A stretch of 64,000 nt of DNA, taken from NCBI RefSeq assembly GCF_003201595.1, contig NZ_QJJS01000014.1:62001-126000 (forward strand), written 5' to 3'. A program made the translations under genes and the position numbers. Shown one piece after another: positions 19,807 through 42,893 of this stretch. The stretch comes from Sphaerotilus hippei. Its GTDB lineage: Bacteria > Pseudomonadota > Gammaproteobacteria > Burkholderiales > Burkholderiaceae_C. Position 1 is the first letter of the stretch. Every line of letters begins with the position of its first letter. The notes beneath the pieces were generated by a model. It saw only the letters and a program-made list of their open reading frames with translations. It made no database searches and was not told where the DNA came from.

Positions 19807-19851
19807 CGCCGGCCGCATCGCCCAGCCCCCGTTTCCCTCCCGATCCGAACG

Positions 19852-19884
19852 GCCCCGCAGGCCGCCGATGCGGCCCTGCGGGGC
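19852..19884 (+). terminator. Strong hairpin between dhaKL and the transketolase-transaldolase gene
   Basis: A stem built from GCCCCGCAGGCCGC and its near-perfect complement (one bulged C) with loop CGAT lies in the 134-base gap between the two genes. No T-run follows. It may partially terminate or act as a transcript-stabilising element that lowers downstream expression relative to dhaKL. Whether it terminates is uncertain. Confidence 0.5.
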
Positions 19885-19940
19885 GTCCGCTCGTCCCTGT
19901 CCGACCCGCTCCTCTGCCTCCACCTGCCGGAATCCATCGC

Positions 19941-27854: not shown

Positions 27855-28514
27855 TCAGCGGTAGCCTTCTTCCCGAAGCACCTGGTGGACCACCGGCCGC
27901 GCCTTCATTCTCGCCAGGTGGGCGGCGAGGCCCGCAGGCATCGCCAGCCCGATGCGCTCGGCCCAGAACTCGGTGTAGAACAGCGCCGCATCGGCGATCG
28001 AGAAGGCCCCGCAGACCCAGCCGCCCTGATCGGCATGCGCGGCGAGCTGGCGGTCGAGCAGGTCGAAGCCTTCGCTCACCAGCGCCCGGCCGCGCGCCTG
28101 CAGCCGTTCACGCCGGGCGGCGGCCGACGGGCCGGCCTCGTCGCCCTCCAGCAGATGGGCCTCGGGCGTGAAGATGCGGGTGTAGCCCTGGCCGTGCACG
28201 GTGCCGACCACGTGGTTGACGGTGGCCAGCACCCGGGCCTGGGCGGCCGGCTCCTCGGGCAGCAGGCCGGCACGCGGGTGGGTCCGGCCCAGCCACCAGG
28301 CGATCGACAGCCAGTCGGTCAGCGCCTGGCCGTCGGGCAGCACCAGCGTCGGGATGGTGCCCTTCGGGTTGAGCGCGAGGTAGCCGGGGCGGCGGTGCTC
28401 GCCGGCCGGCAGGTGGACGACGTGGACCTCGAAGGGCAGCTCGAGCGTCTCGAGCAGCACGTGGATTCCGGTGCTGCAGGAGCCCGGGGTCATGTGGAAC
28501 TGCATCGTGGCCAT
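27855..28514 (-). CDS. Glutathione S-transferase family protein
   Basis: The 219-residue protein has an N-terminal thioredoxin-like domain. It has the TPGSCSTGIHVLLE region with a Cys at the position of the bacterial beta-class catalytic residue, the cis-Pro in NPKGTIPTLVL and TDWLSIAWWL for the glutathione carboxylates. A helical C-terminal domain follows, with ADAALFYTEFWAE. It is 17 bases downstream of the small nif-operon gene, so it is probably the last gene of that long transcript. GST genes occur beside nif genes in several diazotrophs. Its role there, possibly oxidative protection, is not established. The start at 28514 is used; 28505 is an alternative. Confidence 0.85.
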   Translation of the reverse strand: MATMQFHMTPGSCSTGIHVLLETLELPFEVHVVHLPAGEHRRPGYLALNPKGTIPTLVLPDGQALTDWLSIAWWLGRTHPRAGLLPEEPAAQARVLATVNHVVGTVHGQGYTRIFTPEAHLLEGDEAGPSAAARRERLQARGRALVSEGFDLLDRQLAAHADQGGWVCGAFSIADAALFYTEFWAERIGLAMPAGLAAHLARMKARPVVHQVLREEGYR

Positions 28515-28531: not shown

Positions 28532-28888
28532 TCAGTAGACGATGGCGAACAGCTCGGGCTCACGGCGGCGCAGCTTGTCGAGCAGCACCAGCGTGGCGGG
28601 CACGAGTGCGCAGACCGCATACCAGACGATGTCGCGGCGCGGCTCCTGCCCGGCCTGCAGCGCCTGGTGCACCGCCCCCCAGCCGGCCCAGTCGATCTGC
28701 GGCAGGCGCAGGTGCAGGATGGGCGGCAGGTGCGCCATGGTGTTGGCCATGATGCTCAGCTGCAGCTCGATCGCCGCCAGCGTGTTGGGGCTGGCGAACA
28801 GCTCGTCGGCGCCTTGCATCTCGACCACCAGGTCGAGGATGGCCTCGCCGGTGTGGCTGATGATCTCGAACAGGGAATGGGTGTACAT
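28532..28888 (-). CDS. Uncharacterised nif-operon protein, 118 residues
   Basis: I do not recognise a named family. The protein begins MYTHSLFEIISHTGEAILDL, is mostly helical and amphipathic, has no Cys cluster, and has one moderately hydrophobic segment near residues 88-106 (DIVWYAVCALVPATLVLLDK). It starts nine bases after the AAA ATPase stop, which points to co-translation and a possible partner or substrate role for that ATPase. No function is proposed. Confidence 0.7.
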   Translation of the reverse strand: MYTHSLFEIISHTGEAILDLVVEMQGADELFASPNTLAAIELQLSIMANTMAHLPPILHLRLPQIDWAGWGAVHQALQAGQEPRRDIVWYAVCALVPATLVLLDKLRRREPELFAIVY

Positions 28889-28897
28889 GGCGGGGTT

Positions 28898-30637
28898 TCA
28901 GTCGTGCAGGCCGTCCAGCCCGCGGAAGATCGCGCAGCGCTGGAACACCTCGACCGAGGGCAGCACCTGCTTGTGGTGGCAGTACTTGGCGACGAGCTTG
29001 GCCAGGCCCTTGATGTCGCGCCCGCTGGCCTCGGGGTAGGCCTCGGCCAGCCAGGCGAGCCGGGTCTCGTCGAGCGCCAGGGCGAACTGCCCGGCCATGA
29101 CGCGCCAGATGCGCTCGCGCGCCGCGCGGTCGGGCGAGTGGTAGCGGATCAGCGCGATGCAGCGGCTGACGATGGCCTCGTCGATGTCGTCGATGCGGTT
29201 GGTGGTCAGGAAGAGCAGGCCGTTGAAGTACTCCAGCACGCGCAGGAACACGCCCACCACCGCGTTGGCGGCGATGTCGTCGCTGCGCTTCCTGATGTAG
29301 ACGTCGGCCTCGTCGATCAGCATCACCGCGCCCCAGCGCTGGGCGCGGGTCAGCGCCTCCTTCAGCGCGCTCTCCATCGCGGCCACCGACAGCCCGAGCT
29401 GGCCGGAATGCACACGGTAGAGCGGGCGGCCGATGACCTCGGCGTAGACCTCGGCCGTCAGCGTCTTGCCCACCCCCGGCGGGCCCGCGCACAGCACGGT
29501 GGTGCCACCGCTCTTGCCCGCGACGATGTCGTCCATCAGCACGTCCATCTCGGCCGTCAGGATGTCGATCAGGTCGGTCTGCTCACGCGGCAGCACCAGC
29601 TTGCCCTTGAGCTCAGGCGTGTAGACATGCGGCTCGATGTCGTCCACGTGCACCCACAGGTGCTGGTGCAGCTCGAGGTGGAACATGAACAGATAGGCGT
29701 GCACCGGCAGGCGCGAGAACAGCGGACCGTCCTGGCCCACCTCGTTGCGGAGCCGCTCGCGCAGCGCCTTGACCTCGTCCTCGTATTCATAGTCGCTGCT
29801 CTTGCCGGCCTTGCGCAGGTAGGGGCCGACCACGTCGCCGGCCGCGTCCAGCGCGGTCGAGCGCGGGGGCAGGATGCCTTCGTCGTTGACCAGCTTGCTC
29901 AGCCCGCCGCCGGAGGCCAGCACGATGCGGTCCTTGCGCGCCCAGTCGGTGTCGCGGTGGGTGGCGTTCGGGTCCTCGGCGTGGAAGCCGATGCCGCTGC
30001 CGTTGAACAGCGCGCCGTAGCGACCTCGCCACTCGATGTAGCGCTCGAGCGAGGCATCGGCGGCGGCCAGCAGCTCCGGCGTCTCCTTCAGGAAACCCTT
30101 GGCGGCGAGCAGCTCGGCGATGGTCGGCCCGGCGGGATGGGCAGCGTGGCGCAGGTCGGCGTCGGCCAGGCGGATGCTCTGGCTCAGCACGGTGGCACGC
30201 GCCTGGGCCTTCAGCTCGATCATCAGCTTGGCGTTTTCCTCCGACGAGCCGGCGACGAAGTCGACCCGGGTGACGACCCAGCCCAGCGGCTTGCCCTCGG
30301 TGTTGGCGGCGAAGAGCCAGCCGCGCCGGCCGTCGTCGATCAGGTAGCGCAGCAGGGCCGGCAGCAGCGCCTCGAGCTCGCTGCCCGGAGCGAAACGCTG
30401 CCCCTGCGCCCCGTGGCGCAGCGCGTGCACCAGGCCACGCAGCTGCGCGGCCCGGCCGGCCAGCGCGCTGCCGGCCTGCAGGTAGAGGTCGGCCAGGAAG
30501 TCGAGCGCCTCCAGCGACAGGCTGGAGGCGGCCACCTCGATGCGGTGGCCGTAGCGCAGCTGCTCCTGCAGCCGCTCCAGGCCCGGAAAGGCATCGGTCA
30601 GCGCGAGCACGTGGGGGCGATCGAGGTGCAGTTTCAT
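28898..30637 (-). CDS. AAA ATPase of the nif accessory operon
   Basis: The 579-residue protein has an unrecognised N-terminal region (about 1-340) and a C-terminal AAA domain. The Walker A is GPPGVGKT (385-392), Walker B VMLIDEADVY (about residue 440), sensor-1 LLFLTTNRID and a second-region SRCIALIRY. The layout is that of a remodelling ATPase (like CbbX, NorQ or gas-vesicle ATPases) with a dedicated substrate-recognition N-terminus. In a nif operon it could load, unload or protect a metalloprotein. It lies 25 bases downstream of the CCG-domain gene and nine bases upstream of the 118-residue gene. Confidence 0.85.
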   Translation of the reverse strand: MKLHLDRPHVLALTDAFPGLERLQEQLRYGHRIEVAASSLSLEALDFLADLYLQAGSALAGRAAQLRGLVHALRHGAQGQRFAPGSELEALLPALLRYLIDDGRRGWLFAANTEGKPLGWVVTRVDFVAGSSEENAKLMIELKAQARATVLSQSIRLADADLRHAAHPAGPTIAELLAAKGFLKETPELLAAADASLERYIEWRGRYGALFNGSGIGFHAEDPNATHRDTDWARKDRIVLASGGGLSKLVNDEGILPPRSTALDAAGDVVGPYLRKAGKSSDYEYEDEVKALRERLRNEVGQDGPLFSRLPVHAYLFMFHLELHQHLWVHVDDIEPHVYTPELKGKLVLPREQTDLIDILTAEMDVLMDDIVAGKSGGTTVLCAGPPGVGKTLTAEVYAEVIGRPLYRVHSGQLGLSVAAMESALKEALTRAQRWGAVMLIDEADVYIRKRSDDIAANAVVGVFLRVLEYFNGLLFLTTNRIDDIDEAIVSRCIALIRYHSPDRAARERIWRVMAGQFALALDETRLAWLAEAYPEASGRDIKGLAKLVAKYCHHKQVLPSVEVFQRCAIFRGLDGLHD

Positions 30638-30662
30638 CGGGGCCTCGGAGGCTTCGGCGGGG

Positions 30663-32204
30663 TCAGGGGGACACGGCGGCGGGCGCCACCGCCGGACCGT
30701 CGGGGAGCGATGGCGAGGGCGACAGCGCGGCCCGCAGCAGCAGCGCCAGGTGCACGGCCTCGCGGCCCGCGCCGTCGCGGATCTGGTGGCGGCAGCTGGT
30801 GCCGCTGGCCAGGATCAGGTCGTCCGGCGCGGCCGCGCGCACGGCCGGCAGCAGCGCCAGTTCGCCCATGCGCATCGAAGCGGCATGGTGCTCGGCCTCG
30901 TAGCCGAAGCTGCCAGCCATGCCGCAGCAGCTCGACTCGATCCACTGCACCTGCAGGCCCGGCACCAGGCCGAGCAGCTTGCGCATCGCCTTGAGCGTGC
31001 CGAAGGCCTTCTGGTGGCAATGGCCGTGCACATGCACCGTGCGCTCGAGCGCCCGCCAGGGCAGGGCCAGGCGCCGGGCGTCGTGTTCACGCACCAGGAA
31101 CTCCTCCATCAGGAAGACCTGGCGCTCGAGCTTCTTCACCGACCCGGGCGGCAGGCGCAGCAGGTGCACCTCGTCGCGCAGCATCGTCAGGCAGGAAGGC
31201 TCCAGGCCGATCACCGCGCGGCCCGCGTCCAGGTGCGGCTCCAGCGCCTGCAGCAGCCGGCCGGCGTGGGCGCGGGCCTCGTCGACCAGCCCGGCCGAGA
31301 AGGCGGTGCGCCCGCAGCACAGCGCGCCGCCATCGGCCGCCCGCAGCAGGTGGACGCGCAGGCCCGCGGCCTGCAGCACCACCACGGCCGCCTCGGCCAC
31401 CTCCGGATCGAGATGGTTGGCAAAGCAGTCGACCAGCAGGACCACTTCACGGGCCGGACCGGCCTGGGGCAGCGGGGTCGGGGTCGGCCGATCCAGGAAC
31501 GGACGCGCCGCCAGGCGCGGCAAGGAGCGCGCGGCGGCGATGCCGGTCAGCCGCTCGCCGAGCCGCGCCACCCAGGGCAGGCGATCGCGCCAGACCAGCA
31601 GCGAACGCAGCGGCCGCAAGCGCGGCAGGTGGAGGGGCAGGGCGGCAAAGAAGCGGGTGCGCCACGGCGGGCGCTGCCGGTGCCAGCGCTGCGCCAGGGT
31701 CTCGGCGCGCAGCGCGGCCATGTCGACCCCGTTCGGGCACTCGCGCTTGCAGCCCTTGCAGGCCACGCAGAGTTCCATCGCGGCGTCGAGCCGCTGCGCG
31801 GCGGCGGCGTCCCACAGCGGCGAGGTCGCCGCCGCGGCCAGACCGGCCGTGCCGCCGGGCGCGAGTTCGCCGTCGAGGGCCTCGCGCAGCGCGGCCGCCC
31901 GGCCGCGCGTGCTGTGCAGATCGTCCTGCGTGATGCGGAAGCTCGGGCACATCAGGCCCTTGTCGCCGGCATCGCCGCGGGCCTTCTGGCACTGCCGGCT
32001 GCCGATGCACAGCGAGGCTGCCTTGCCGAAGCCCTCGCCTCGCCCGGGCACCGCCGCGTAGGCGTCGCCCTGGCCGTAGGCGTCATGGGCCGACCAGTCG
32101 AGCTGCAGCGCGCTCGGCCCGGCCGGCCCGCACGCGCCGGGCGGCATCGGCTCATCCATGCCGGGCGGCCCCATCGGCAGCTCCATCGAAGGCAGATCGG
32201 CCAT
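30663..32204 (-). CDS. Fe-S protein with CCG domains (GlpC/YdiJ C-terminal-like)
   Basis: The 513-residue protein has two cysteine clusters near the N-terminus: CIGSRQCQK with a later LMCPS (about residues 66-88), then CVACKGCKRECP (about 145-156), giving two [4Fe-4S] sites. Two CCG repeats follow (GALCCGRTAF and ESSCCGMAGSFG). This is the Fe-S/CCG half of YdiJ or GlpC-type dehydrogenases without the FAD-binding half. The separate FAD protein and [2Fe-2S] ferredoxin encoded nearby could supply the missing flavin and electron route. It may move electrons for nitrogenase or an associated reaction. The start at 32204 lies four bases after the previous stop. Confidence 0.82.
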   Translation of the reverse strand: MADLPSMELPMGPPGMDEPMPPGACGPAGPSALQLDWSAHDAYGQGDAYAAVPGRGEGFGKAASLCIGSRQCQKARGDAGDKGLMCPSFRITQDDLHSTRGRAAALREALDGELAPGGTAGLAAAATSPLWDAAAAQRLDAAMELCVACKGCKRECPNGVDMAALRAETLAQRWHRQRPPWRTRFFAALPLHLPRLRPLRSLLVWRDRLPWVARLGERLTGIAAARSLPRLAARPFLDRPTPTPLPQAGPAREVVLLVDCFANHLDPEVAEAAVVVLQAAGLRVHLLRAADGGALCCGRTAFSAGLVDEARAHAGRLLQALEPHLDAGRAVIGLEPSCLTMLRDEVHLLRLPPGSVKKLERQVFLMEEFLVREHDARRLALPWRALERTVHVHGHCHQKAFGTLKAMRKLLGLVPGLQVQWIESSCCGMAGSFGYEAEHHAASMRMGELALLPAVRAAAPDDLILASGTSCRHQIRDGAGREAVHLALLLRAALSPSPSLPDGPAVAPAAVSP

Positions 32205-32207
32205 CGT

Positions 32208-32684
32208 TCAGCCCCGGTGCTCGCAGAGCAGGGCGTTGGCGCGCAGCGCGAAGTCGCGCCAGGTGGCGGCGAGTTCGCGGCGGATCAGCGCCAGGGTCGC
32301 GGTGCTGGGGCGGTGTTCCTGCGGGAAGTTCGACAGGGCGCAGGAGGTGTTGTTGAACTTGACCACCTCGGTCACCAGCGCTTCGGCCGACCCGCGGAAG
32401 GGGGCCAGCACCTCGGGCGTCAGCCGGTGGCGCCCGGCCTCGACCGGCAGATGCGCGGTCGCTGGCCCGCCTGCCAGGCGGGCCAGCGCCTCGCCGTGGA
32501 ACGCATCCATCACCGCCAGCACGGCGTTGAGGGTCAGGTCCTCGGCCTGCTGGCTCGACAGCGCCGCATGCACCTGCTCGCGGTAGCGCTGCATCAGGCC
32601 TGCGCGGCCACGCTGCACCGCCTCGGCAAAATCGGCCAGCCAGGGCCCGTGCTCGACCGGCGACGCGGGGCTCGGCGCGGTCAT
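32208..32684 (-). CDS. Uncharacterised nif-operon protein, 158 residues
   Basis: I do not recognise the family. The protein is predicted helical, with LADFAEAVQRGRAGLMQRYR near the N-terminus and a conserved-looking EVVKFNNTSCALSNFP segment in the middle (about residues 112-126) that includes one Cys. There is no signal peptide or membrane helix. Its start overlaps the stop of the FAD oxidoreductase gene (ATGA), and its stop is four bases before the CCG-domain gene, so it is firmly within the operon. Confidence 0.7.
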   Translation of the reverse strand: MTAPSPASPVEHGPWLADFAEAVQRGRAGLMQRYREQVHAALSSQQAEDLTLNAVLAVMDAFHGEALARLAGGPATAHLPVEAGRHRLTPEVLAPFRGSAEALVTEVVKFNNTSCALSNFPQEHRPSTATLALIRRELAATWRDFALRANALLCEHRG

Positions 32685-33892
32685 GGCAGCGCGCCTGCCG
32701 GCACCGGGACGGGCGCGGCATCGTTGGCGGCCTCGGTCAGCAGGCGGCGCAGCCGCGCGGCGGCCGACAGCGCCCCTTCGAGATAGCCCCCGCCCTGGCG
32801 GGCCGTCTCGCTGCCGCCCAGCAGCAGCCGGCCCTGCCACAGCGGCCGCTGCAGCGCCTCGTCACCGTAGACCGGGTGGCCACCGGGCTGACCGTCTTCG
32901 GCGACATCGAGTGCGGTGCAGGTCAGCGGCTCGCGGGCCCAGTCCTGCAGGTGCTGTTCGAGCACGCCGAGGCCGGTGCCGGCACCGAACAGCATCTGGA
33001 CCTGGCTCTCGATCAGCATCGGCAGGCCGACGCGGAACTGGTCGCGCTGCGAAGCGCCCAGCGCCAGGAAACCGGCCAGCGCGGCGCCTTCGCGCGCATC
33101 GGCCGGCCCGGCATCGAACACCTCGGCCAGCACGGCCTGCGGGTGGGTGACCCAGGCGTTGCCGCTGAGCCCCTGGTCGCGCCAGGCGGGCCGGTCGCAG
33201 CGCACGGCCGCCTTGGCGGCGGTGGCCATCCAGGTCGGGGTGGCGCGCAGGGCCGCGTCCAGCGGTTCGGGCAGCGCCGGCTCGAAGGCCAGCGAGGCCG
33301 CCGCCAGTCGGGGCGGCAAAGCCAGCACCACCCGCCGCGCGGTCAACCGCGCGGTCGAGGTCGACCCGCAGGCCTCGGGCGCCGAAAAATGCAGTTCGAC
33401 ATGGTCCCCGCGGTCGACCAGGCGCAGCAGGCGCTGCCCCAGGCGCAGGCGCTGGGCCGGCAGCATCGCCTGCATCGCGCCGGTCAGGGCGCTCATGCCA
33501 CCGGTCAGGCGGCGGGCGCCACCGTGCAGCGCGCCGGCCTGGGCGGGGGTGCGGTCGCCCTCGGCACGCAGCGTGCCGGTGTGCGGGTCGAAGGCGCGCG
33601 GGGTCGGCACCCGGTTCGGGTCGTCCAGCAGCAGCACGCGGCCATCGTCGGGCTGCTCGATCCAGTCCAGCCCCAGGTCGTCGATCAGGCGGGTGATCGA
33701 CGGCTGGGTGGCCGGCCAGAACCAGGTCGGGCCCAGGTCCAGCGCCGGACCGGTGCCGGCCGGGCTGCCGAGCACACGACCACCGAGGCGGTCGCGGCCC
33801 TCGAAGAGTGCCCAGTCCATGCGGCGGGCCTGGAGGCTGTGCGCAAGCGCCAGCCCGCACAGGCCGCCACCGATGATCGCGATGTCCAGCAT
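32681..33892 (-). CDS. FAD-dependent amine-oxidase-type oxidoreductase
   Basis: The 403-residue protein begins with a Rossmann dinucleotide motif (IAIIGGGLCGLALAHSLQ, residues 4-21), then an acidic ribose-binding EGRDRLGGRV. It ends in the flavin-adenylate loop GGSETARQGGGYLEGALSAA, the monoamine-oxidase/protoporphyrinogen-oxidase pattern. The start at 33892 (MLDIAII) is fixed by the family motif. In the nif operon it could be the flavin partner of the CCG-domain Fe-S protein. The substrate is unknown. The 71-base gap before it holds no clear promoter. Confidence 0.82.
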   Translation of the reverse strand: MLDIAIIGGGLCGLALAHSLQARRMDWALFEGRDRLGGRVLGSPAGTGPALDLGPTWFWPATQPSITRLIDDLGLDWIEQPDDGRVLLLDDPNRVPTPRAFDPHTGTLRAEGDRTPAQAGALHGGARRLTGGMSALTGAMQAMLPAQRLRLGQRLLRLVDRGDHVELHFSAPEACGSTSTARLTARRVVLALPPRLAAASLAFEPALPEPLDAALRATPTWMATAAKAAVRCDRPAWRDQGLSGNAWVTHPQAVLAEVFDAGPADAREGAALAGFLALGASQRDQFRVGLPMLIESQVQMLFGAGTGLGVLEQHLQDWAREPLTCTALDVAEDGQPGGHPVYGDEALQRPLWQGRLLLGGSETARQGGGYLEGALSAAARLRRLLTEAANDAAPVPVPAGALP

Positions 33893-33963
33893 GGCAGGAA
33901 CTCCCCTGTAGCGGTGATGCAGGCCGGCGCGGCACGGGCCGCCCGGCGACGGCCCGTGGTGAC

Positions 33964-34266
33964 TCAGTTGAGCGCGCCCAGCAGCTCGACCGTCACCGGC
34001 TCGGTGCCCAGCAGCGTGACCTGGCAGGCCAGGCGCGACTTGGAGCCGATGCCCACGAGGGTGTCGAGCTTGGCGTTCTCGGCCGGGGTCAGCTTGGACA
34101 CGCCCTTGCGGCCTTCCTTGACGAAGATGTGGCAGGCGCCGCACTTGGCCTCGCCGCCACACTTGCTGGCCAGCGCTTCGCCGGCGGCGAGGATGGCCTT
34201 GAGCAGGTTGGTGCCGGCTTCGAATTCGAAGGTCTTGCCCGAAGGCTGGAGGGTGAGCGTGGTCAT
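33964..34266 (-). CDS. [2Fe-2S] ferredoxin of the nif operon
   Basis: The 100-residue plant/Shethna-type ferredoxin has ligands C36, C42 and C45 in KCGGEAKCGACHIFV, plus C81 in LACQV. The N-terminal beta hairpin (MTTLTLQPSGKTFEFEAG) matches the fold. Nif-linked [2Fe-2S] ferredoxins act in electron transfer or as protective Shethna proteins that bind nitrogenase under oxygen. Which applies here is unknown. It lies between the SIR2-like gene and the FAD oxidoreductase gene. Confidence 0.9.
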   Translation of the reverse strand: MTTLTLQPSGKTFEFEAGTNLLKAILAAGEALASKCGGEAKCGACHIFVKEGRKGVSKLTPAENAKLDTLVGIGSKSRLACQVTLLGTEPVTVELLGALN

Positions 34267-34303
34267 GGAAAAACTCCTGTGCTTGGAGGGTGGGTGGGGG
34301 AAA

Positions 34304-35146
34304 TCAGGCGGCGACGGGCGTGCCGGTGGTCAGCCGGGCCGCCACGTCGGCCAGGGGCAGGGCGATCCGGGTGATGCCCTGCTCCTCGAGGAAACGGACC
34401 TCCATGCGCGAGGGCTCGTCGGGCAGCACCGCGTAGTGCGGACCGCCGGAGCGTTTCATGATCTGGCGGGCGAAGGCGCGCGGCAGCTGGTCGTTGAAGC
34501 GGCAGCCGAGGAAGACGAAGCCCCGCTCGCTGCGGCGCTGCTGCACCAGCGCCGGGATCGGCGTCTGGATGTCGATCTCGGTCAGCACCTCGACCATGTC
34601 GGTGTCGGAGACCAGGAAGTTCTCGGCCGGCGCCCGGCCGCCCCAGGGCTTGTAGAGCACGGTGCGGGCCTCGACCGGATCGGGGCTGCCCTCGCCGGTG
34701 GCGCCGTACCAGCCCACCCAGGTGCCGAAGTGCTCGCTCTGGCTCAGGCCCTGGACCTCGGCCCAGTCGCTGCGACCCGCCAGCGCGCTGCGCATCGTGT
34801 CGTCGTACCAGGTGTCGACGATGAACGGCGCGCCCAGCGTCGCCAGCCACTGGTGCAGCGGCGACGGCGCGGCCTGCGTCGCGAAGGCCTCGACCATCGC
34901 CTTGACCAGGGTCTTGCGGTGCTTGAAGTTCTCGATGAACTGGGCCGCGGCGGTCAGGCGGTTCTTGATCTTGCCCGGCACCGACACCTTGGCGGTGAGG
35001 AACTGGGCCAGGCCCAGCGGATCAGGCGGCGGCGTGCTGCCGCTGCACAGGGCCAGCATGCCCGGGCCCAGGTAGGGCACCAGGGTGCCGGCGGCGAGGC
35101 CCTCGGCCACGGCAGGGGGCAGGTGATCGACGGTCGGATGGCTCAT
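34304..35146 (-). CDS. SIR2-like domain protein of the nif operon
   Basis: The 280-residue protein resembles the SIR2-like (SIR2_2) group. It has an N-terminal nucleotide-binding motif LVPYLGPGML (about residues 22-31), a central alpha-beta region with PFIVDTWYDD, and a C-terminal GFVFLGCRFNDQLPRAFARQ that matches the SIR2-like LxGxSxxD region. No zinc-binding Cys quartet is visible, so a true deacetylase is unlikely. SIR2-like domains also act as NADases in phage defence; here the conserved place in a nif operon suggests NAD-dependent control. The start at 35146 (MSHPTVDHL) is chosen; upstream codons overlap noncoding sequence. Confidence 0.7.
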   Translation of the reverse strand: MSHPTVDHLPPAVAEGLAAGTLVPYLGPGMLALCSGSTPPPDPLGLAQFLTAKVSVPGKIKNRLTAAAQFIENFKHRKTLVKAMVEAFATQAAPSPLHQWLATLGAPFIVDTWYDDTMRSALAGRSDWAEVQGLSQSEHFGTWVGWYGATGEGSPDPVEARTVLYKPWGGRAPAENFLVSDTDMVEVLTEIDIQTPIPALVQQRRSERGFVFLGCRFNDQLPRAFARQIMKRSGGPHYAVLPDEPSRMEVRFLEEQGITRIALPLADVAARLTTGTPVAA

Positions 35147-35192
35147 GGGGCGCCTCGTGGAGAGTGGGGTGGACGGGGGGAGGAAGGCAGGA

Positions 35193-36401
35193 TCAGTAGA
35201 TCGCCGCCCCGGCACCGACGTTGACCGACGAGTCCTTCATCGTCTTGACGATGAACTTGACGTGGTCGGGCTCGAGGTGGCCGTGGAAGGGCAGGGCCAT
35301 CGCCCGGTCGGCGATGCGCTCGACCAGCGGGAACTGGCCGCGCTTCCAGCCCAGCTGCTGGTAGTGGAACTGCTGGTGCAGCGGCTGGCAGTACAGCACC
35401 GACTCGATGGACTCGGCGCTCATGTCCTCGATGATCTGCTCGCAGGCGCTGGCGGTGAACCGCTTGCCCAGGTGCACGATGAACAGCATCCAGTGCACCT
35501 CGTCGACGTCCTGGCCGACATACGGCGGCTTGATGCCCTCGAAGCTCTGCATCTGCTCGAGGTAGCAGCGCTCGACCGCCTTGCGCCGCTCGAGCAGCTC
35601 GGGCAGCCGGGCCAGCTGGCCGGCGCCGAGCGCGGCGGTCAGCTCGCTCATGCTGGCCTGCAGCGGCACGCGCGAGCCGACCGAGACGCTGCGGCGGTCG
35701 GCGATGGAGCGCGAGCGCAGGTAGCGCAGCTCGGCCGCCAGCGTCGCATCGTCGGTGACGAGCATGCCGCCTTCGCCGCAGCACAGCGCCGAGGGCTGCG
35801 AGAAGTCGAACACCGACACGTCGCCGAAGGTGCCCACCTCGCAGCCGCGGTAGCGCGAGCCGATGGCCTCGGTGGAATCCTCGATCAGCTTCAGGCCGTG
35901 CTGGTCGGCCACCGCGCGCAGCTCGTGCCAGGCCGCCGGGTGGCCGTTGATGTTGCCCGCCAGGATGGCGCGGGTCGCCGGCGTGATCTGGGTGGCCGCC
36001 CGCACCGGGTCGAGGCAGCCGGTCCAGTAGTTGATGTCGGAGAAGACCACGCGAGCGCCGGTCAGGCCCACGGCGTGAGCCACCTGGTGCCAGCCATAGG
36101 GCGAGGCGATCACCTCGTCGCCCGGGCCGATGCCCATCGCCCGCAGGGCCAGCCAGACACCGATCGTGCCGCTGGCCACCGCCACCGCATGGGCACGGCC
36201 CAGGTGGCGGGCGAACGCCTGCTCGAAGTGCTCGACCATGCGCCCGGCCGACAGCCGCGGCTCCTTCAGCGCGGCCAGCACCAGCTGCTGCTCGACCTCG
36301 CTGACGTCGGGATCGCTCAGCAGCAGCCAGTCGTCGGGCAGGTCGAAGTGCTCCTGCTCGTCCTCGGCGGTGGTCTCCATCAGGTCGGGGAAGGCGCTCA
36401 T
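35193..36401 (-). CDS. DegT/DnrJ aminotransferase-fold protein lacking the PLP lysine
   Basis: The 402-residue protein has DegT/DnrJ/EryC1 features: ASGTIGVWLALRAMGIGPGD, IASPYGWHQ, the PLP-ring Asp in LIEDSTEAIG and the loop ending GEGGML. The Schiff-base Lys normally found seven residues into the FSFH-A-T-K-N loop is Ser here (S204 in FDFSQPSALCCGEGG), and two Cys (C207, C208) sit beside it. A normal transaminase mechanism therefore seems impossible. It may be a PLP-binding pseudoenzyme or a thiol protein. The stop of the DUF6129-like gene is four bases upstream of its ATG, so it is co-transcribed with nif genes. Confidence 0.82.
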   Translation of the reverse strand: MSAFPDLMETTAEDEQEHFDLPDDWLLLSDPDVSEVEQQLVLAALKEPRLSAGRMVEHFEQAFARHLGRAHAVAVASGTIGVWLALRAMGIGPGDEVIASPYGWHQVAHAVGLTGARVVFSDINYWTGCLDPVRAATQITPATRAILAGNINGHPAAWHELRAVADQHGLKLIEDSTEAIGSRYRGCEVGTFGDVSVFDFSQPSALCCGEGGMLVTDDATLAAELRYLRSRSIADRRSVSVGSRVPLQASMSELTAALGAGQLARLPELLERRKAVERCYLEQMQSFEGIKPPYVGQDVDEVHWMLFIVHLGKRFTASACEQIIEDMSAESIESVLYCQPLHQQFHYQQLGWKRGQFPLVERIADRAMALPFHGHLEPDHVKFIVKTMKDSSVNVGAGAAIY

Positions 36402-36405
36402 CGCA

Positions 36406-36681
36406 TCACCCCCGGTCGCTGATGAAGAAGCCGACGGCCCGGGCCGGATCGGCCGTGACCTGCCAGCAATGGCCATCGCTGGCACCGAGGTAGAGGGCAC
36501 GCCGCTCGCCCTGCGCGGCCGGGGTCTCGGCGCGCATGTCGAAGGCGTCGACCACGACGATCCTCATCGGGGCAAAACGGGTGCGCAGCGCCGCGGCGGC
36601 TTCGCGCACGGTGGCGGCGGCCTCGGCGAGGCCGAGGGCTTCGTCCAGCGCGGTGGCATCGATGGCCAGGGTGGCGGTCAT
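36406..36681 (-). CDS. DUF6129-like small nif-operon protein
   Basis: The 91-residue protein has a helical N-terminus (ALDEALGLAEAAATVREAAA) followed by a beta-rich half with MRIVVVDAFDMRAE and a C-terminal VGFFISDRG. Small proteins of this type accompany nifT and nifS in several nif clusters; I assign it to DUF6129 from memory of that context, with moderate certainty. No function is known. It lies seven bases after nifT and four before the DegT-fold gene. Confidence 0.65.
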   Translation of the reverse strand: MTATLAIDATALDEALGLAEAAATVREAAAALRTRFAPMRIVVVDAFDMRAETPAAQGERRALYLGASDGHCWQVTADPARAVGFFISDRG

Positions 36682-36688
36682 GGCGGCC

Positions 36689-36913
36689 TCACTCGGCGGC
36701 GGTGGCGTCGGCCAGCTTGCGGGCCTCCACCGTGATCGGCAGCGTCGTGCCGGCGGGCATCTCGGGCAGGGTCAGCACCCAGCCGTTGGCCAGCGTGACG
36801 TTGCCGCCCCACAGGTCCGGCCGGTCCTGCGCGACGACGGGCTCCTCCAGGTCCTTCTTGGGCACGTAGACCGACAGGATCCCGGCAGCGTTGCGGCGCA
36901 TCATCACTTTCAT
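36689..36913 (-). CDS. nifT: NifT/FixU protein
   Basis: The 74-residue protein has the NifT size and pattern: MKVMMRRNAAGILSVYVPKK, DLEEPVV and WGGNVTLANGWVLTLPEM. NifT is a small conserved nif protein with no proven role, usually located near nifK or nifS/nifZ. The start at 36913 gives the normal family N-terminus. It is 23 bases after nifS. Confidence 0.88.
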   Translation of the reverse strand: MKVMMRRNAAGILSVYVPKKDLEEPVVAQDRPDLWGGNVTLANGWVLTLPEMPAGTTLPITVEARKLADATAAE

Positions 36914-36936: not shown

Positions 36937-38130
36937 TCAGGCCGCCATCGCGGTGGTTTCGATCGGGGCCAGCAGCGGGCCGATCACCCGGGCCACGGCG
37001 TCGAGGGCACGCTGGATCTCGGCGGCGGCGGTCTCGCGGCCGAGCGAGAAGCGCACGCCCGCCTTGGCATGCAGCGCGCTCTCGCCCATCGCCAGCAGCA
37101 CGTGCGAGGGCTGGGTGCCAGCCGCGGTGCAGGCCGCGCCCGACGAGGCGACCACCCCGGCGTTCTCCAGCCGGTTGAGCACCTGGTCGCTGTCGAGCGC
37201 GCCGAAGCGCAGGCACACGGTGTTGGGCAGGCGAGCGGCCTGGCGGCCGTAGACCTGCACCTGCGGCCAGGCCCTCAGACCGTCCTCGAGCCGCTCGCGC
37301 AGCGCCGTCATGCGCGCCAGGTCCTCGTCGAGCGTGCGCCGCGCCAGCTCGCAGGCGGCGGCGAAACCGGCGATGCCGGGGGTGTTCTCGGTGCCACCGC
37401 GGCGGTTGCGTTCCTGGCGGCCCGACAGCAGCGCCGGCAGCACCACGCCCTTGCGCACGACCAGCGCGCCCACGCCCTTGGGGCCGTGCAGCTTGTGGGC
37501 CGACACGCTCATCAGGTCAATGCCCGAGGACGCGAAATGCAGCCGCGACTTGCCCAGCAGCTGGGTCGCATCGACGTGCAGCAGGCTGCCCGCGGCGCGG
37601 GCCAGCGCGGCCAGCTCGGCCACCGGCATCAGCACGCCGGTCTCGTTGTTGGCGCCCATCACGCTGACCAGCGCGACGTCGTCGCGGATCAGCGCCCGGG
37701 CGGCGTCCAGGTCGAGGCGGCCCTGCGTGTCCACCGGGATCAGGTCGACCGGCACGCCTTCACCCTGCAGGCGCCGGGCCAGGGCCAGCAGGCCGGGGTG
37801 CTCGACCGCCGACAGCACCAGGCGGCGGCGCTGGCCGCCGGAGGCCGCACGGGCCGCCTCCAGCGCGCCGAGCACCGCCATGTGGTTGGCCTCGGTCGCG
37901 CCGCTGGTGAACACCAGCTCCGTGCCCTGGCAGCCCAGGAAGGCGGCCACGCGGGTGCGGGCGTCGGCCAGCAGGCGGCGGGCGCCCTGGCCGGGCTCGT
38001 GGGTCGAGGACGGGTTGGCCCAGCCCAGCTCCAGCGCGTCGACCATCTCGGTCACGACCTCGGGGGCCGGCCGCGTGGTGGCGTTGTGGTCGAGGTAGAC
38101 GAGCGAAGCGCCTGCAAGCGACATGTTCAT
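36937..38130 (-). CDS. nifS: Cysteine desulfurase NifS
   Basis: The 397-residue class I cysteine desulfurase begins with YLDHNATTRPAPEV. It has the PLP-ring residues in VDATQLLGK, the Schiff-base Lys K213 in SVSAHKLHGPKG and the catalytic Cys C334 in SSGAACTAAGTQPSHVL. It removes sulfur from cysteine for nitrogenase Fe-S cluster assembly, normally onto NifU or an IscA-type scaffold. The ATG at 38130 overlaps the stop of the previous gene (ATGA). The usual partner nifU is not in the window, but an IscA-like carrier is encoded upstream in the same operon. Confidence 0.95.
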   Translation of the reverse strand: MNMSLAGASLVYLDHNATTRPAPEVVTEMVDALELGWANPSSTHEPGQGARRLLADARTRVAAFLGCQGTELVFTSGATEANHMAVLGALEAARAASGGQRRRLVLSAVEHPGLLALARRLQGEGVPVDLIPVDTQGRLDLDAARALIRDDVALVSVMGANNETGVLMPVAELAALARAAGSLLHVDATQLLGKSRLHFASSGIDLMSVSAHKLHGPKGVGALVVRKGVVLPALLSGRQERNRRGGTENTPGIAGFAAACELARRTLDEDLARMTALRERLEDGLRAWPQVQVYGRQAARLPNTVCLRFGALDSDQVLNRLENAGVVASSGAACTAAGTQPSHVLLAMGESALHAKAGVRFSLGRETAAAEIQRALDAVARVIGPLLAPIETTAMAA

Positions 38131-38501
38131 TGCCAGTACTCCCGGTCACGGTCTTCACAGACGAGGTCCAGCGCCCGGGGCAGCGTCAGGCCTGCCCCCT
38201 TGCGCACCCAGCGGCCCGACGCGTGGTCACGGGCGTGCAGCGCCCAGCGATCGCCCTCGGGCTCGAACCAGGCGATGTCGATCTCGCCACCCATCGGATC
38301 GATGTTGCGCGAGCAGTTCGCGCTGACGATCTTCCAGCCGTGCCCTTCACGCTCCAGGCGCGGCTGCACGTACTTGTAGCGGGCCCGCCGCTCCAGCGCC
38401 CGTTCGATGCGGCGCCGCGACAGGTCAGTGACCGGACCGGCGACGGCGCCGCCCGGAGGGCGCGGCCGGCTGCCCCGCGGAGGGACGGTGTGCGGAGTCA
38501 C
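38127..38501 (-). CDS. DUF3024-like nif-operon protein
   Basis: The 124-residue protein probably starts at GTG 38501, which overlaps the previous stop (GTGA). It has the pattern IERALERRARYKYVQPRLE, then WKIVSANCSRNIDP, IDIAWFEPEGDRWALHARDH and WVRKGAG, which I match to DUF3024 family members from memory. The N-terminal 25 residues are Pro/Arg-rich and poorly conserved-looking. The function is unknown; in nif clusters it sits beside nifZ and nifS. Confidence 0.65.
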   Translation of the reverse strand: MTPHTVPPRGSRPRPPGGAVAGPVTDLSRRRIERALERRARYKYVQPRLEREGHGWKIVSANCSRNIDPMGGEIDIAWFEPEGDRWALHARDHASGRWVRKGAGLTLPRALDLVCEDRDREYWQ

Positions 38502-38770
38502 GCGGCGACTCCCTCGGCCTCGGGCACGTAGAGCCCGGGCGGCACGATCTCCTCCTCGAGACAGCCCAGCACCACGATGCCGAAGTCGACCATGTAGAGC
38601 GGGATGTTGGCCTCGCCGTGATGGCCCACCTGCACGATCTCGCCCGGGCCGCCGGCGGCGACGACCAGCTGGTCCTCGGGCACGTCGGGCAGGCTGCCGT
38701 CGTTGTAGAGATCGGTGGCGGCCACCACCTCCTGGCCCCACTCGTAGCGGGGCAGACGCTGGTCGATCAT
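38498..38770 (-). CDS. Second NifZ-like protein
   Basis: The 90-residue protein has the NifZ beta-fold pattern: YEWGQEVVAATDLYNDGS, then GEIVQVGHHGEANIPLYMVDF and GIVVLGCLEEEIVP. It is shorter than the neighbouring NifZ and differs strongly in sequence, so it is an old duplicate or a related family member. Its start is 12 bases after the nifZ stop. It probably also assists P-cluster maturation, but that is inferred. Confidence 0.75.
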   Translation of the reverse strand: MIDQRLPRYEWGQEVVAATDLYNDGSLPDVPEDQLVVAAGGPGEIVQVGHHGEANIPLYMVDFGIVVLGCLEEEIVPPGLYVPEAEGVAA

Positions 38771-38782
38771 GTCGGGCTCCTG

Positions 38783-39118
38783 TCAGCGGATGTCATTGAG
38801 CTGGGTGAAGCGCTCGCCCAGCTGGGCCAGCACCTCCTCGGGCAGGTGGTCGAGCGTGCACAGCTCCTTGGCGCGCATGCCGACCTGGTGGCCGGAGTCG
38901 ACGAACTCGACGGCGTAGATGTAGAACATCTGCAGGAAGGTGCCGATCGAGCGCACGTAGCCGATCTCGCCCTTGTTCACCAGCACGTCGCCGATGTCCT
39001 TGCCGTTGTAGGTGCCGTCGTTGCGCACCACCGAACGGCTGATCACGCGCTCGCCCATCGAGAAACGGGGCGGCAGGGAGATCTCGAGCACGTCGTCGTC
39101 ACGGGAGATGTCAGCCAT
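38783..39118 (-). CDS. nifZ: NifZ protein
   Basis: The 111-residue protein contains the family core: LPPRFSMGERVISRSVVRNDG, DVLVNKGEIGYVRSIGTFLQ, YIYAVEFVDSGHQVGMRAKE. NifZ is a chaperone-like factor needed to form the second P-cluster of the MoFe protein. Its ATG overlaps the end of the LRV gene by eight bases, so translation is coupled. Confidence 0.9.
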   Translation of the reverse strand: MADISRDDDVLEISLPPRFSMGERVISRSVVRNDGTYNGKDIGDVLVNKGEIGYVRSIGTFLQMFYIYAVEFVDSGHQVGMRAKELCTLDHLPEEVLAQLGERFTQLNDIR

Positions 39119-39923
39119 CGGAGCACTCCTGGGTTGCGGAAGGAATCAGCTGCAGCAGGCGGGTGCGCACCTGCTCGCGCACCTCGGCCTCGTCGTCGTC
39201 GCGCAGGCGGGCCAGCAGCGCCGGGGCGGCCCGGCCGGCCACGTGCCAGCGCACGACCCAGTCGGGGTCGTGCACCAGGGCCTCGAGCAGCCCGGCGGGC
39301 AGGCGCTCGGCCACGAGGCGACGCACCTCCGGATCACGGTCGGCGGCCAGGCGCAGCAGCGCGGGCATCTCGAGGCGGCGCGCCACCTCCAGACGCACCT
39401 GCAGGTCGGTGTCGTGCATCAGCAGCGGCAGCAGGGCGACCGGCAGGCGGCGGGCGACGACCTTGCGCACCTCGTAGTCGCCGTCGCCCAGCATCGAGGC
39501 CACGTCGGCATCGGCCAGGCGCTGCGCCACCCGGATGCGCACCTCACGATGGGGATCCTCGCGCAGCCGGCCCAGCAGCCGCTGCGGCAGGCGCAGCGCG
39601 ACCTGCAGCCGCACGGTCTCGTCGGGATCGTCCATCAGCGCGGGCAGCTGGAAGACGTCGGCATAGCGGGCGGCGATCGCCCGCACCTCGAAATACGGGT
39701 GGCCGAGGTGCCGGCCGGCCAGCGTGCGGTGCTGGCGGAAGAAGCGGTCGATGCGCCGGGCATAGGCGTCCTGCATGCAGCAGCGCCCGGGCGCGCAGCC
39801 GGCGTCGGCCCCCAGGGCCAGCAGGTCCTGGTGCGGGCAGGCGCTGCAGTCCAGCGGACCGCCCTGCCAGTCGAGCACGGGGATGTCCTGCCAGGCCGGG
39901 GGGGAGTTGGACAGGTCGGCCAT
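39111..39923 (-). CDS. [4Fe-4S] leucine-rich-variant (LRV) repeat protein
   Basis: The 270-residue protein has an N-terminal Cys cluster (C26, C29, C43 and C48/C49 in CSACP and APGRCCMQDA). About seven helical repeats follow, each with a pattern like DPEVRRLVAERLPAGLLEAL. This is the architecture of the LRV protein first described from the Azotobacter vinelandii nif region. The Fe-S domain and repeat superhelix suggest a protein-binding adaptor. The start at 39923 (MADLSNSPPAWQ) is fixed by the domain. It overlaps nifZ by eight bases and lies 20 bases after the TPR gene. Confidence 0.9.
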   Translation of the reverse strand: MADLSNSPPAWQDIPVLDWQGGPLDCSACPHQDLLALGADAGCAPGRCCMQDAYARRIDRFFRQHRTLAGRHLGHPYFEVRAIAARYADVFQLPALMDDPDETVRLQVALRLPQRLLGRLREDPHREVRIRVAQRLADADVASMLGDGDYEVRKVVARRLPVALLPLLMHDTDLQVRLEVARRLEMPALLRLAADRDPEVRRLVAERLPAGLLEALVHDPDWVVRWHVAGRAAPALLARLRDDDEAEVREQVRTRLLQLIPSATQECSDG

Positions 39924-39943
39924 GGCGGGGGTCCGTCGCTGTC

Positions 39944-40540
39944 TCAGGCCGAAGCGCCCGGGCGGTGGCCGGTGCCCGAGGCCCGGGCCCACGCGGCGGC
40001 ACCGAAGGCCGGGGCGTCGGCAGCGTCGGGCGCGTCCGGGTCGTCACCCACCAGCGCACGCACCCGCACGGCCTCGAGCAGCGCGCCGCCGACCCGGTCC
40101 TCCGGGTCCAGCTCGCGCAGCTTGGCCAGCGCGTCGCGGGCCTCGTTCTGGTCGTCCAGGCGCAGGCTGAGGTAGGCGTAGCCCTTGAGCACGAACAGGT
40201 AGAAGCGGGTGCGGGCGCCACTGCCCGCCTCGGGCAGCGGGCGGTCGGGCACGTCGCGCCAGACGGTCGGCAGGTCCAGCGCCAGGGCGCCCACGGTCAG
40301 CGCCCGGCGGGCGATGTCGCGGGCCGCCGCCAGGCGGTGGCCGTAGAAATGGTGGCGGTAGAAGGCGATCAGCACCGCCGGATGGTCCGGCGCCAGCGAC
40401 CGGGCCCGCATCAGGGCGGCCATCGCCAGCGCCGGCTCCACGCCGCGCAGCTGGCCGGCTTCTTTCAGGGCCGCCTCGGTCTCGGCCGACAGGCCGCCCC
40501 CCAGCACCGCATCGTCGAAGTCGGCCAGCCCGTCCATCAT
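39944..40540 (-). CDS. TPR-like helical nif-operon protein
   Basis: The 198-residue protein consists of paired helices that look like tetratricopeptide repeats: ALAMAALMRARSLAPDHPAV, GHRLAAARDIARRALTV and RFYLFVLKGYAYLSLRLDDQ followed by ARDALAKLRELDPEDRVGG. The start at 40540 overlaps the IscA-like stop (ATGA). The C-terminal 30 residues are low complexity (Asp/Ala-rich). It probably mediates protein interactions in the Fe-S maturation group; no partner can be named. Confidence 0.75.
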   Translation of the reverse strand: MMDGLADFDDAVLGGGLSAETEAALKEAGQLRGVEPALAMAALMRARSLAPDHPAVLIAFYRHHFYGHRLAAARDIARRALTVGALALDLPTVWRDVPDRPLPEAGSGARTRFYLFVLKGYAYLSLRLDDQNEARDALAKLRELDPEDRVGGALLEAVRVRALVGDDPDAPDAADAPAFGAAAWARASGTGHRPGASA

Positions 40541-40929
40541 GCCCTCACCGTGCGCTTGATGGAGTCCAGCGAGACGCTGGTCTCGGCCGGCATCGCGGCC
40601 GCGTCGCCCGAGCTCGAGCAGCCGCAGGCGGCCTGGTTCGGGTTGACGAAGGTCAGGCCGCTCTTGGTGGGCGTGTCGGCGAAGTCCACCGTGATGCCGT
40701 CGAGCATCAGGCGGCTCTCGGCCGGCAGGAACACCTGCACGTCGTTGACCATCAGCACGCTGTCGCCGGCCATCGGCCGGGGCTCGACGGTGAACTCGCT
40801 CGAATAGCCCGAGCAGCCGCCGGGGCTGACGGTCAGGCGGAAGCCGCCGGCCGGGTGCTCGGAAAAACGCACCATGCGCCGCATGAACTTCTCGGCCGCC
40901 GGCATGACGATCACGTTGGGTTGCAGCAT
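40537..40929 (-). CDS. Nif-specific IscA-like Fe-S carrier
   Basis: The 130-residue A-type carrier has the three conserved Cys: C39 in SPGGCSGY and C102, C104 in AACGCSSSG. The HesB/IscA core is VMPAAEKFMRRM, followed by FRLTVSPGGC and later GITVDFADTP. It would carry or assemble Fe-S clusters for nitrogenase along with NifS. The start at 40929 (MLQPNVIVM) is used; GTG 40938 overlaps the ferredoxin stop and is an alternative. The tail beyond the last Cys (about 25 residues) is longer than in housekeeping IscA. Confidence 0.9.
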   Translation of the reverse strand: MLQPNVIVMPAAEKFMRRMVRFSEHPAGGFRLTVSPGGCSGYSSEFTVEPRPMAGDSVLMVNDVQVFLPAESRLMLDGITVDFADTPTKSGLTFVNPNQAACGCSSSGDAAAMPAETSVSLDSIKRTVRA

Positions 40930-40934
40930 GTCGC

Positions 40935-41129
40935 TCACACTTTCTTGATGCAGTTGTCGACCGGGCACACTGCGACGCACTGGGGCGAGTCGAACTGGCC
41001 TTCGCACTCGGTGCACTTGGCCGGATCGATGATGAAGGTGCCGCCCTTCTCGCGGATGGCGACGTTGGGGCACTCGGGCTCGCAGGCGGAGCAGCCGGTG
41101 CACATCGAGGCAATGATCTTGAGAGCCAT
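40935..41129 (-). CDS. fdxN: 2[4Fe-4S] ferredoxin (FdxN-like)
   Basis: The 64-residue ferredoxin has two clusters: C10, C13, C16, C20 ([12 protein letters not shown]) and C39, C42, C51, C55, plus a further C60 near the C-terminus. The longer [13 protein letters not shown] insertion is typical of nif-linked FdxN. FdxN next to nifB serves as electron donor for NifB-co synthesis in Azotobacter. It lies 44 bases after nifB and just before the IscA-like gene. Confidence 0.92.
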
Positions 41130-41173
41130 GTCTATCTCCTTGGGCTGGATGGGTGGGGGGGCGTGGAAGGAAT

Positions 41174-42794: not shown

Positions 42795-42811
42795 TTGCGA
42801 GAGCCGTGCCA
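42795..42811 (-). promoter_or_regulatory. RpoN (-24/-12) promoter of nifB
   Basis: On the minus strand the sequence TGGCACGGCTCTCGCAA matches the sigma-54 consensus TGGCACG-N4-TTGCA with one mismatch in the -12 box. The GG and GC pairs are exactly 10 bases apart. It lies about 40 bases upstream of the nifB start codon. Confidence 0.88.
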
Positions 42812-42877
42812 AGCCGTCCGATGGCAAATACACCAGACAAATCAATCGGTTGCGCTGGATCAAGGCGCATGTCGGGA

Positions 42878-42893
42878 TGTGCGGATCGCGACA
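42878..42893. promoter_or_regulatory. NifA-type upstream activator site
   Basis: TGT, ten bases (GCGGATCGCG) and ACA form the classical NifA-binding motif TGT-N10-ACA. It lies about 67 bases upstream of the nifB -24 element, the normal range for an enhancer acting on a sigma-54 promoter. The remaining bases between nifB and 42985 hold no gene. Confidence 0.8.

Follow-up and report, generated by a model that had tools for sequence, protein, structure and literature searches.

What do the genes that follow nifT in the nif region of Sphaerotilus hippei contribute to nitrogen fixation? The window, the whole stretch of 64,000 nucleotides analyzed here (C14:62001-126000 of a 4.43 Mb genome in 46 contigs), contains a run of co-directional genes downstream of nifS and nifT, which encodes among others a DegT-fold protein and a SIR2-like protein. 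The original prediction described this run as a distal module of the nif accessory operon, which could protect, repair or supply electrons to nitrogenase, or switch it off. Our analysis indicated that the set is layered, with the SIR2-like protein most conserved, and that the SIR2-like and DegT-like proteins look devoid of catalytic residues. We tentatively favor, with somewhat less than even confidence, a reading in which this layered part of the nifB-nifZ-nifS-nifT operon is a nitrogenase maturation and quality-control annex, composed of non-catalytic SIR2-like and DegT-like scaffolds and of redox- and ATP-driven helpers. The genes from nifT to the end of the run are listed below.

36689..36913, minus strand: nifT (PF06988, 104.4 bits)
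36406..36681, minus strand: 91-residue protein of the DUF6129 family (DUF6129 is matched by 13 of 14 aligned members, but not by the copy in the window)
35193..36401, minus strand: DegT-fold protein without the pyridoxal phosphate (PLP) lysine (PF01041, 293.4 bits)
34304..35146, minus strand: SIR2-like protein without the Asn/His pair (PF13289, 67.6 bits, cut-off 24.5)
33964..34266, minus strand: [2Fe-2S] ferredoxin, ISC/adrenodoxin-like (PF00111; matches in the Protein Data Bank, PDB)
32681..33892, minus strand: flavin adenine dinucleotide (FAD) protein, monoamine-oxidase-like (PF01593; a relative matches PDB amine oxidases)
32208..32684, minus strand: 158-residue helical protein (no family; overlapping open reading frame, ORF, that in relatives is the C-terminal portion of the FAD protein)
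30663..32204, minus strand: 4Fe-4S/CCG protein (PF13183, PF02754; GlpC/YdiJ-like below cut-offs)
28898..30637, minus strand: AAA ATPase (PF00004 at residues 381-494, in the C-terminal part; N-terminal part without a family)
28532..28888, minus strand: 118-residue protein of a weakly HepT-like family (no family above cut-off)
27855..28514, minus strand: glutathione S-transferase (GST)-family protein, end of the run (PF13409 and others)

SIR2 enzymes need both an active-site Asn and an active-site His, and the PDB names KomC(H146N) and DSR2(H171A) agree with this. The two residues do not occur together in any of the 138 SIR2-like sequences that we aligned. His alone is found in nine and Asn alone in 15. 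The Asn column is Trp in 123 sequences, and the Ser of GAGxS is replaced by Leu in 133 and kept in one. The window protein has Trp at both the Asn and the His positions. Parts of PYxGP in the nucleotide loop are invariant or nearly so. For comparison, 14 SIR2_2 proteins were translated and 13 aligned (L222 was left out, and L235, with an internal stop, was not used). Asn is present in 12 of the 13, and their His column holds ten His, two Asn and one Phe. The SIR2-like protein of G206:C28 is also without His and was not taken as an ordinary reference. All nine His-bearing members of the family come from alphaproteobacteria or from the alphaproteobacterial portion of the sample, and this branch suggests a stepwise loss of the active site. 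In L207 (G372) and the rhizobial plasmids L203, L204 and L205, His is kept and Trp stands in place of Asn.

The DegT-like protein has lost its central residue as well. In 92 aligned sequences, the column of the PLP-binding Lys of perosamine synthetase (3bn1) never contains Lys; it is Ser in 64, Gly in 17, Leu in six, Ala in two, Cys in two and Gln in one. The pocket Asp is retained in all 92. The other proteins keep their key residues: the four cluster Cys of the ferredoxin in 76-78 of 78 sequences, the three glycines of the FAD motif in 36-37 of 37, 14 of 16 cysteines of the CCG protein in all six, and the Walker A, Walker B and sensor residues of the AAA protein in 21 of 21, apart from a variable Walker Pro 387. 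Loss of catalytic residues is therefore confined to two proteins, both among the best conserved of the set. Since both look without catalytic residues, the SIR2-like and DegT-like proteins probably help to build or look after nitrogenase rather than catalyze a reaction. The set had been credited with redox, nicotinamide adenine dinucleotide (NAD)-binding and ATP-driven parts; the redox and ATP residues are indeed intact, whereas an NAD-linked activity is not supported, given the missing Asn/His pair and a GAGxS motif altered in nearly all sequences.

Gene order links the set to nif. We examined the best 80 of at least 531 SIR2 relatives in named genomes, mostly betaproteobacterial by title, and scored gene presence in these SIR2-centered loci by tblastn. 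At least one of nifB, nifZ, nifS, nifT, nifH and nifK is present in 75 of the 80; in the other five, the available sequence ends less than 1.7 kb upstream of the SIR2 gene. nifT is found in 74 loci, degT in 71, nifS in 70, the 91-residue gene in 68, the ferredoxin gene in 63 and nifB in 62. The outer genes are less frequent (FAD 36, 118-residue 32, 158-residue 28, AAA 8, GST 5, CCG 2). The most common neighbors are nifS-nifT and degT-SIR2 (70 loci each), followed by nifT-DUF6129 (66), SIR2-ferredoxin (62) and ferredoxin-FAD (27). The recurring order is nifS-nifT-DUF6129-degT-SIR2-ferredoxin, and this core order is conserved across beta-, gamma- and alphaproteobacteria. Shorter nifB-nifZ-nifT-SIR2 operons are found in some betaproteobacteria, in several genomes of a phylum-wide sample, and on plasmids of Rhizobium tropici, Sinorhizobium fredii, a Mesorhizobium and two other Rhizobium strains. 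The set is thus not the single module of equal parts first proposed. SIR2 is its most conserved member, DUF6129, the DegT-like protein and the ferredoxin form a common second layer, and the FAD, 118-residue, CCG, AAA and GST proteins are optional members, often located elsewhere.

Occurrence in genomes follows nitrogenase. Among 250 Burkholderiales genomes, 38 have NifH (E <= 1e-80). Counting only matches with E < 1e-150 as nif-type (72 genomes match at E <= 1e-10), full-length AAA protein is present in 17, of which 16 have NifH. Shorter AAA relatives occur in G158, G119, G072 and G025, all without NifH, and NifH-positive G034 has a fragment with a stop. The SIR2-like, DegT-like, FAD, 158-residue and CCG proteins (not the 91-residue, ferredoxin, 118-residue and GST proteins) were searched for in 60 genomes, comprising the 38 with NifH, G135 (AAA present, no NifH) and 21 others without NifH picked by hand, not at random. 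SIR2 is present in 38 of the 60, which are 37 of the 38 NifH-positive genomes (not G132) and one of 22 without NifH. The latter is G135, which has SIR2, DegT and AAA proteins and no NifH match. DegT matches of at least 53% identity were found in 21 genomes, 20 with NifH and G135 (in G236 a fragment at a contig end); the remaining matches are 28-37% identical. FAD matches of at least 48% identity (11 genomes) and 158-residue matches (six) are all in NifH-positive genomes. Weaker FAD matches of 40-42% occur in G173, G217 and G138, and G173 and G138 have no NifH. Fisher tests, which ignore shared ancestry, gave p values of 6e-14 for SIR2, 5e-14 for AAA, 2e-4 for DegT and 5e-3 for FAD. CCG matches (E <= 1e-30) were found in 19 of the 60: nine genomes without NifH with frames of at least 984 residues, nine NifH-positive ones with frames of at most 716, and NifH-positive G132 with long frames. 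In several of the matches with short frames, the matched range is interrupted by a stop.

The SIR2 subtype also tracks the type of nitrogenase. SIR2 proteins 24-30% identical to that of the window occur in 11 genomes, exactly the 11 with NifH 75-77% identical, and the remaining 26 genomes with both proteins have NifH at least 89% identical, an agreement of 37 out of 37. In the phylum sample of 398 genomes, SIR2 is found in 17, NifH in 40 and both in 14. Ten of the 11 genomes with full-length NifH of at least 83% identity have SIR2 (not G283). G524, with a partial NifH of 85%, has no SIR2, nor do most NifH-positive genomes near 73-77%. Two SIR2-positive genomes without a NifH match, G489 and G291, have nifB-nifZ-nifT beside SIR2; in the third, G316, no nif match was found in 14.3 kb. 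Among 72,556 plasmids, 75 carry SIR2, in seven genera (Rhizobium 55, Sinorhizobium 7, Mesorhizobium 7, Paraburkholderia 2, Bradyrhizobium 2, Methylococcus 1, Microvirga 1), and seven of these plasmids were examined. SIR2 is a feature of one large nitrogenase branch rather than of every nitrogenase. Because the gene order recurs in SIR2-centered loci and the proteins co-occur with NifH, the linkage to nif is beyond chance.

Published proteome data from Rhodobacter capsulatus add expression evidence. In the accessible part of PMC6925177, nif cluster A lists the SIR2 family protein Rcc03262 next to NifT (Rcc03263). In the wild type, Rcc03262 measured 7.3 and 6.6 fmol; it was never detected in a nifA1-nifA2 mutant, and the SIR2 protein is NifA-dependent there. 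FdxD reached 17.1 and 22.9 fmol and NifH 325.3 and 404.5 fmol. The level of Rcc03262 is far lower than that of NifH and near those of NifE, NifN and NifS, as expected of an assembly factor. A nif cluster of Zymomonas mobilis contains the SIR2-like ZMO1821; as given in the accessible part of PMC8594446, 30 of 31 nif-cluster proteins rise on a shift to N2, a figure that is not specific to ZMO1821. A figure legend in PMC9412634 gives the order LRR-nifZ-nifT-SIR2 in Rhodovulum. The accessible parts of PMC7825797, PMC2820453, PMC11227200, PMC2907700 and PMC3557214 hold nothing on the function of the accessory genes, and no functional study of the set was found in one open-access library, with most subscription journals outside this scope, in line with the expectation of a nif-linked accessory set without a published function.

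nifB, nifZ, nifS and the LRV-FeS protein gene, which precede the set in the window, are cluster biosynthesis or maturation genes. A scaffold or chaperone role fits these neighbors, the assembly-factor-like level in one organism and the lost catalysis in two core proteins. We propose that, while metalloclusters are inserted, the SIR2-like protein, encoded next to nifT, and the DegT-like protein, encoded near nifS, would serve as non-catalytic scaffolds or as chaperones that bind a ligand. The ferredoxin, FAD and CCG proteins would modulate the redox state of thiols or clusters, and the AAA protein would remodel or release stalled or damaged complexes. That DegT would pair with NifS, and SIR2 with NifT, is suggested by gene adjacency. 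A plasmid of Methylococcus sp. EFPC2 (89.6 kb) carries most of the set (no 118-residue match) with nif, isc and grxD genes, and the clpP, clpX and lon genes also on it count in favor of the maturation reading. It is possibly a dedicated nif support plasmid. In L240 (NZ_CP070492.1:22000-71000) of this plasmid, nifA, nifB, nifL, nifV, nifW and further nif accessory genes lie side by side with isc, clpP, clpX, lon, BolA and Grx genes.

Several observations weigh against the maturation reading. With its pocket Asp intact, the DegT-like protein may still bind PLP or pyridoxamine phosphate, and some SIR2-like branches may be active, given the nine sequences with His and the 15 with Asn. The AAA, CCG and GST genes are often elsewhere in the genome, unlinked to nif. 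At E <= 1e-50, the AAA family matches 156 plasmids, mostly of Citrobacter and Klebsiella, and the identity is under 60% in 155; many non-diazotroph plasmids have such broader AAA relatives, near 40% identity. SIR2 is absent from 26 of the 40 NifH-positive genomes of the phylum sample and is therefore no general requirement for nitrogen fixation. Abundance in one organism is a weak argument, and the roles proposed for all these proteins are predictions.

Electron supply or oxygen protection would account for part of the set. The ferredoxin, FAD and CCG proteins, which keep their cofactor residues, could work as a short electron chain that supplies nitrogenase or its maturation, or else scavenges oxidants, with SIR2 and DegT as its scaffold; the ferredoxin gene adjoins SIR2 in the 62 loci and FAD in the 27 loci counted above. 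However, the most conserved member also occurs without degT and the ferredoxin in nifB-nifZ-nifT-SIR2 operons, FAD is in just 36 and CCG in two of the 80 loci, and the R. capsulatus SIR2 level is well below those of FdxD and NifHDK in the accessible data (PMC6925177). We consider this explanation unlikely. Operon context and published abundance give maturation a slight advantage over protection, repair or electron supply. Distinctly less probable is ligand sensing, in which the SIR2-like protein would bind NAD or ADP-ribose and the DegT-like protein PLP or a sugar-nucleotide-like ligand without turnover, and report the energy or sulfur state to NifT/NifS or the AAA protein. The invariant DegT pocket Asp and the nearly invariant parts of PYxGP agree with it, whereas the replacement of the GAGxS Ser by Leu and of Asn by Trp does not, and ligand binding is hypothetical.

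The switch-off role, as a catalytic NAD-dependent mechanism like DraT/DraG or the SIR2 NADases, is disfavored by the loss of the SIR2 catalytic pair and by the GAGxS loop, altered in nearly all sequences. The SIR2 fold, the His kept in nine sequences and a DraG-like ADP-ribosylglycohydrolase gene elsewhere in the nif region could be taken for it, but Asn and His are never found together and the window protein has Trp at both positions, which makes it very unlikely. Slightly less probable still is that the outer genes are passengers, carried with nif by horizontal transfer and without a role in nitrogen fixation. Their content and order differ between loci, and GST is on the opposite strand in four of five. 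This explanation is at odds with the core order conserved in beta-, gamma- and alphaproteobacteria, the agreement of SIR2 subtype with NifH type, and the NifA-dependent production of SIR2 reported in the accessible part of PMC6925177; it is stronger for GST and CCG than for the core.

The layout of the locus is compatible with co-expression of the maturation genes and the accessory set. The minus-strand run extends from 42754 down to 27855, with nifB first and the GST gene last. The single clear NifH of the source genome (1.8e-128, among eight NifH-family matches) lies outside the window. The genes and sites upstream of nifT are as follows.

36937..42754, minus strand: nifB, 4Fe-4S ferredoxin, a stretch of about 1 kb, LRV-FeS protein, two nifZ, DUF3024 and nifS, in this order (Pfam matches)
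42796..42812, minus strand: sigma54-like -24/-12 site (at most one mismatch to consensus; 41 bp before the nifB start)
42878..42893, minus strand: NifA-type upstream box TGT-N10-ACA (pattern scan; 65 bp upstream of the sigma54-like site)

The sigma54-like site is the only one in the whole window within one mismatch of the consensus used; six are found on both strands within two mismatches, with 1.45 per strand expected from base shuffles. A pattern scan found five TGT-N10-ACA boxes in the window. No sigma-70-like site was found in 27-44 kb of the window. Terminator-like sites number five against 3.0 expected; on the minus strand downstream of 36401, none separates two genes of the module. One NifA-driven transcript from nifB through the module is plausible from these patterns. 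All gaps from nifS to GST, on a single strand, are within -4 to 71 bp, as in an operon. Pfam confirmed the predicted DegT-fold, SIR2-like, [2Fe-2S] ferredoxin, FAD, CCG and AAA identities, on the minus strand and in the same order. The close spacing of 28532-36401 also holds (46, 37, 71, -4, 3, 25 and 9 bp, gene by gene from degT to the 118-residue gene), with eight ORFs rather than the nine genes counted. nifS-nifT, nifT to the 91-residue gene and the latter to degT are separated by +23, +7 and +4 bp, so that the set is joined to nifS and nifT by proximity and not by the overlap that had been claimed; the sole overlap is FAD/158-residue. The proposed boundaries had left out the 91-residue gene, and the GST gene starts 17 bp downstream of the 118-residue gene.

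The 158-residue protein, first taken for a separate unknown, corresponds to a split-off C-terminal part of the FAD protein. The two share one frame of 519-574 residues in 28 of 28 loci having both matches. Six loci have the FAD part alone (368-386 residues), and L151 has a 146-residue piece. The window FAD frame ends in an ATGA overlap with the 158-residue ORF, so that the gene is split here, either naturally or through a sequencing error. The model of the 158-residue protein is confidently helical (mean predicted local distance difference test score, pLDDT, 93.5), and the domain carries the motif N-x-x-S-C-A-x-S-x-F, with Cys in 29 of 29. Foldseek gave no match for the model at E <= 0.001. 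The best VIA match, a designed helical filament (Z 9.1, root-mean-square deviation 3.5, 107 aligned), was set aside; it may be chance for a helical bundle. PDB profile searches with the 158- and 118-residue families gave nothing below E 0.1. The 118-residue protein remains without a family above cut-off, as predicted; weak matches to PF01934 (HepT-like) were found in ten of 27 members, the best at 8e-5, and none in the window copy. A second copy of this family, 29% identical, is in L039 (G000:C14:40000-59999) of the same genome at 19591-19965, minus strand, near nifHDK, and the DraG-like gene is not far from it, at 11567-12472 of L039.

The ferredoxin scored 54.0 bits against NCBIfam fdx_isc, under the cut-off of 132.1, and the Shethna/FeSII name is absent among its 30 PDB matches (E <= 1e-4), a protein with which it was not compared directly. 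The CCG protein scored 189.2 bits against GlpC (cut-off 278). The AlphaFold2 model of the AAA protein has a mean pLDDT of 46.2. AAA relatives of about 540 residues occur in L057-L060, from genomes without NifH, two of the four behind a frame of 225-237 residues that is hydrolase-like by eye. Families of about 97 and 92 residues and a fumarylacetoacetate-hydrolase-like gene recur beside AAA/GST (L041, L042, L137, L240). The two small families have no Pfam match, and CowN was rejected as the identity of the 97-residue neighbor for this reason. Elsewhere in the window, the stretch at 39923-40935 (minus strand), between the 4Fe-4S ferredoxin and LRV genes, has an IscA/HesB-like frame at its beginning by eye; in annotated relatives, the corresponding place encodes an Fe-S assembly accessory protein and a protein labeled hypothetical. 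At 48926-57559 (minus strand), an open frame of 2877 residues has a coding-like base composition.

A bolder possibility, which we regard as doubtful, is that in a large branch of proteobacterial diazotrophs the nitrogenase assembly line includes two overlooked dead enzymes, one with a SIR2 fold that partners the orphan NifT and one with a DegT fold, devoid of the lysine, that partners NifS. This pair would optionally be served by its own AAA remodeler and a flavoprotein with a helical Cys-motif domain. NifT has no settled function in the accessible part of PMC3557214. Transfer of nif to new hosts rests on short lists, and the nine-gene Paenibacillus set, as described in the accessible part of PMC4761190, names none of these genes. 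A gene that tracks nitrogenase in rhizobial plasmids and in nearly all NifH-positive Burkholderiales examined makes the role of NifT and late maturation directly testable, and may account for poor nitrogenase stability or activity in certain hosts.

R. capsulatus cluster A shares with the window a SIR2-family gene beside nifT; Rcc03262 is likened by annotation and position, not by sequence, and the accessible part of the table (PMC6925177) names no DegT, FAD or AAA protein. The Z. mobilis cluster also shares a SIR2-like gene, and the accessible part of PMC8594446 gives no function for ZMO1821. On pSym of R. tropici CIAT 899, nifB-4Fe4S-nifZ-nifT-SIR2 has the order and strand of the window, with SIR2 52% identical. 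Unlike the window, its annotated 18.8 kb contains no DegT, DUF6129, ferredoxin or outer genes, and its SIR2 keeps the His. With SIR2 NADases such as KomC, ThsA and DSR2, the profile similarity covers the first half (KomC E 3e-4); the Asn/His pair is not kept in the window family, and GAGxS is altered. GlpC and the C-terminal half of the D-2-hydroxyglutarate dehydrogenase YdiJ have a 4Fe-4S and CCG layout like that of the window CCG protein, which is a stand-alone ORF and scores below the NCBIfam cut-offs. DegT/DnrJ/EryC1/StrS aminotransferases such as perosamine synthetase are alike over the whole length (3bn1, E 5e-73). Here, however, the Schiff-base lysine is replaced in all 92 sequences, and an invariant NxNGHPAxW stretch and a conserved C-terminal tail set the nif-linked family apart.

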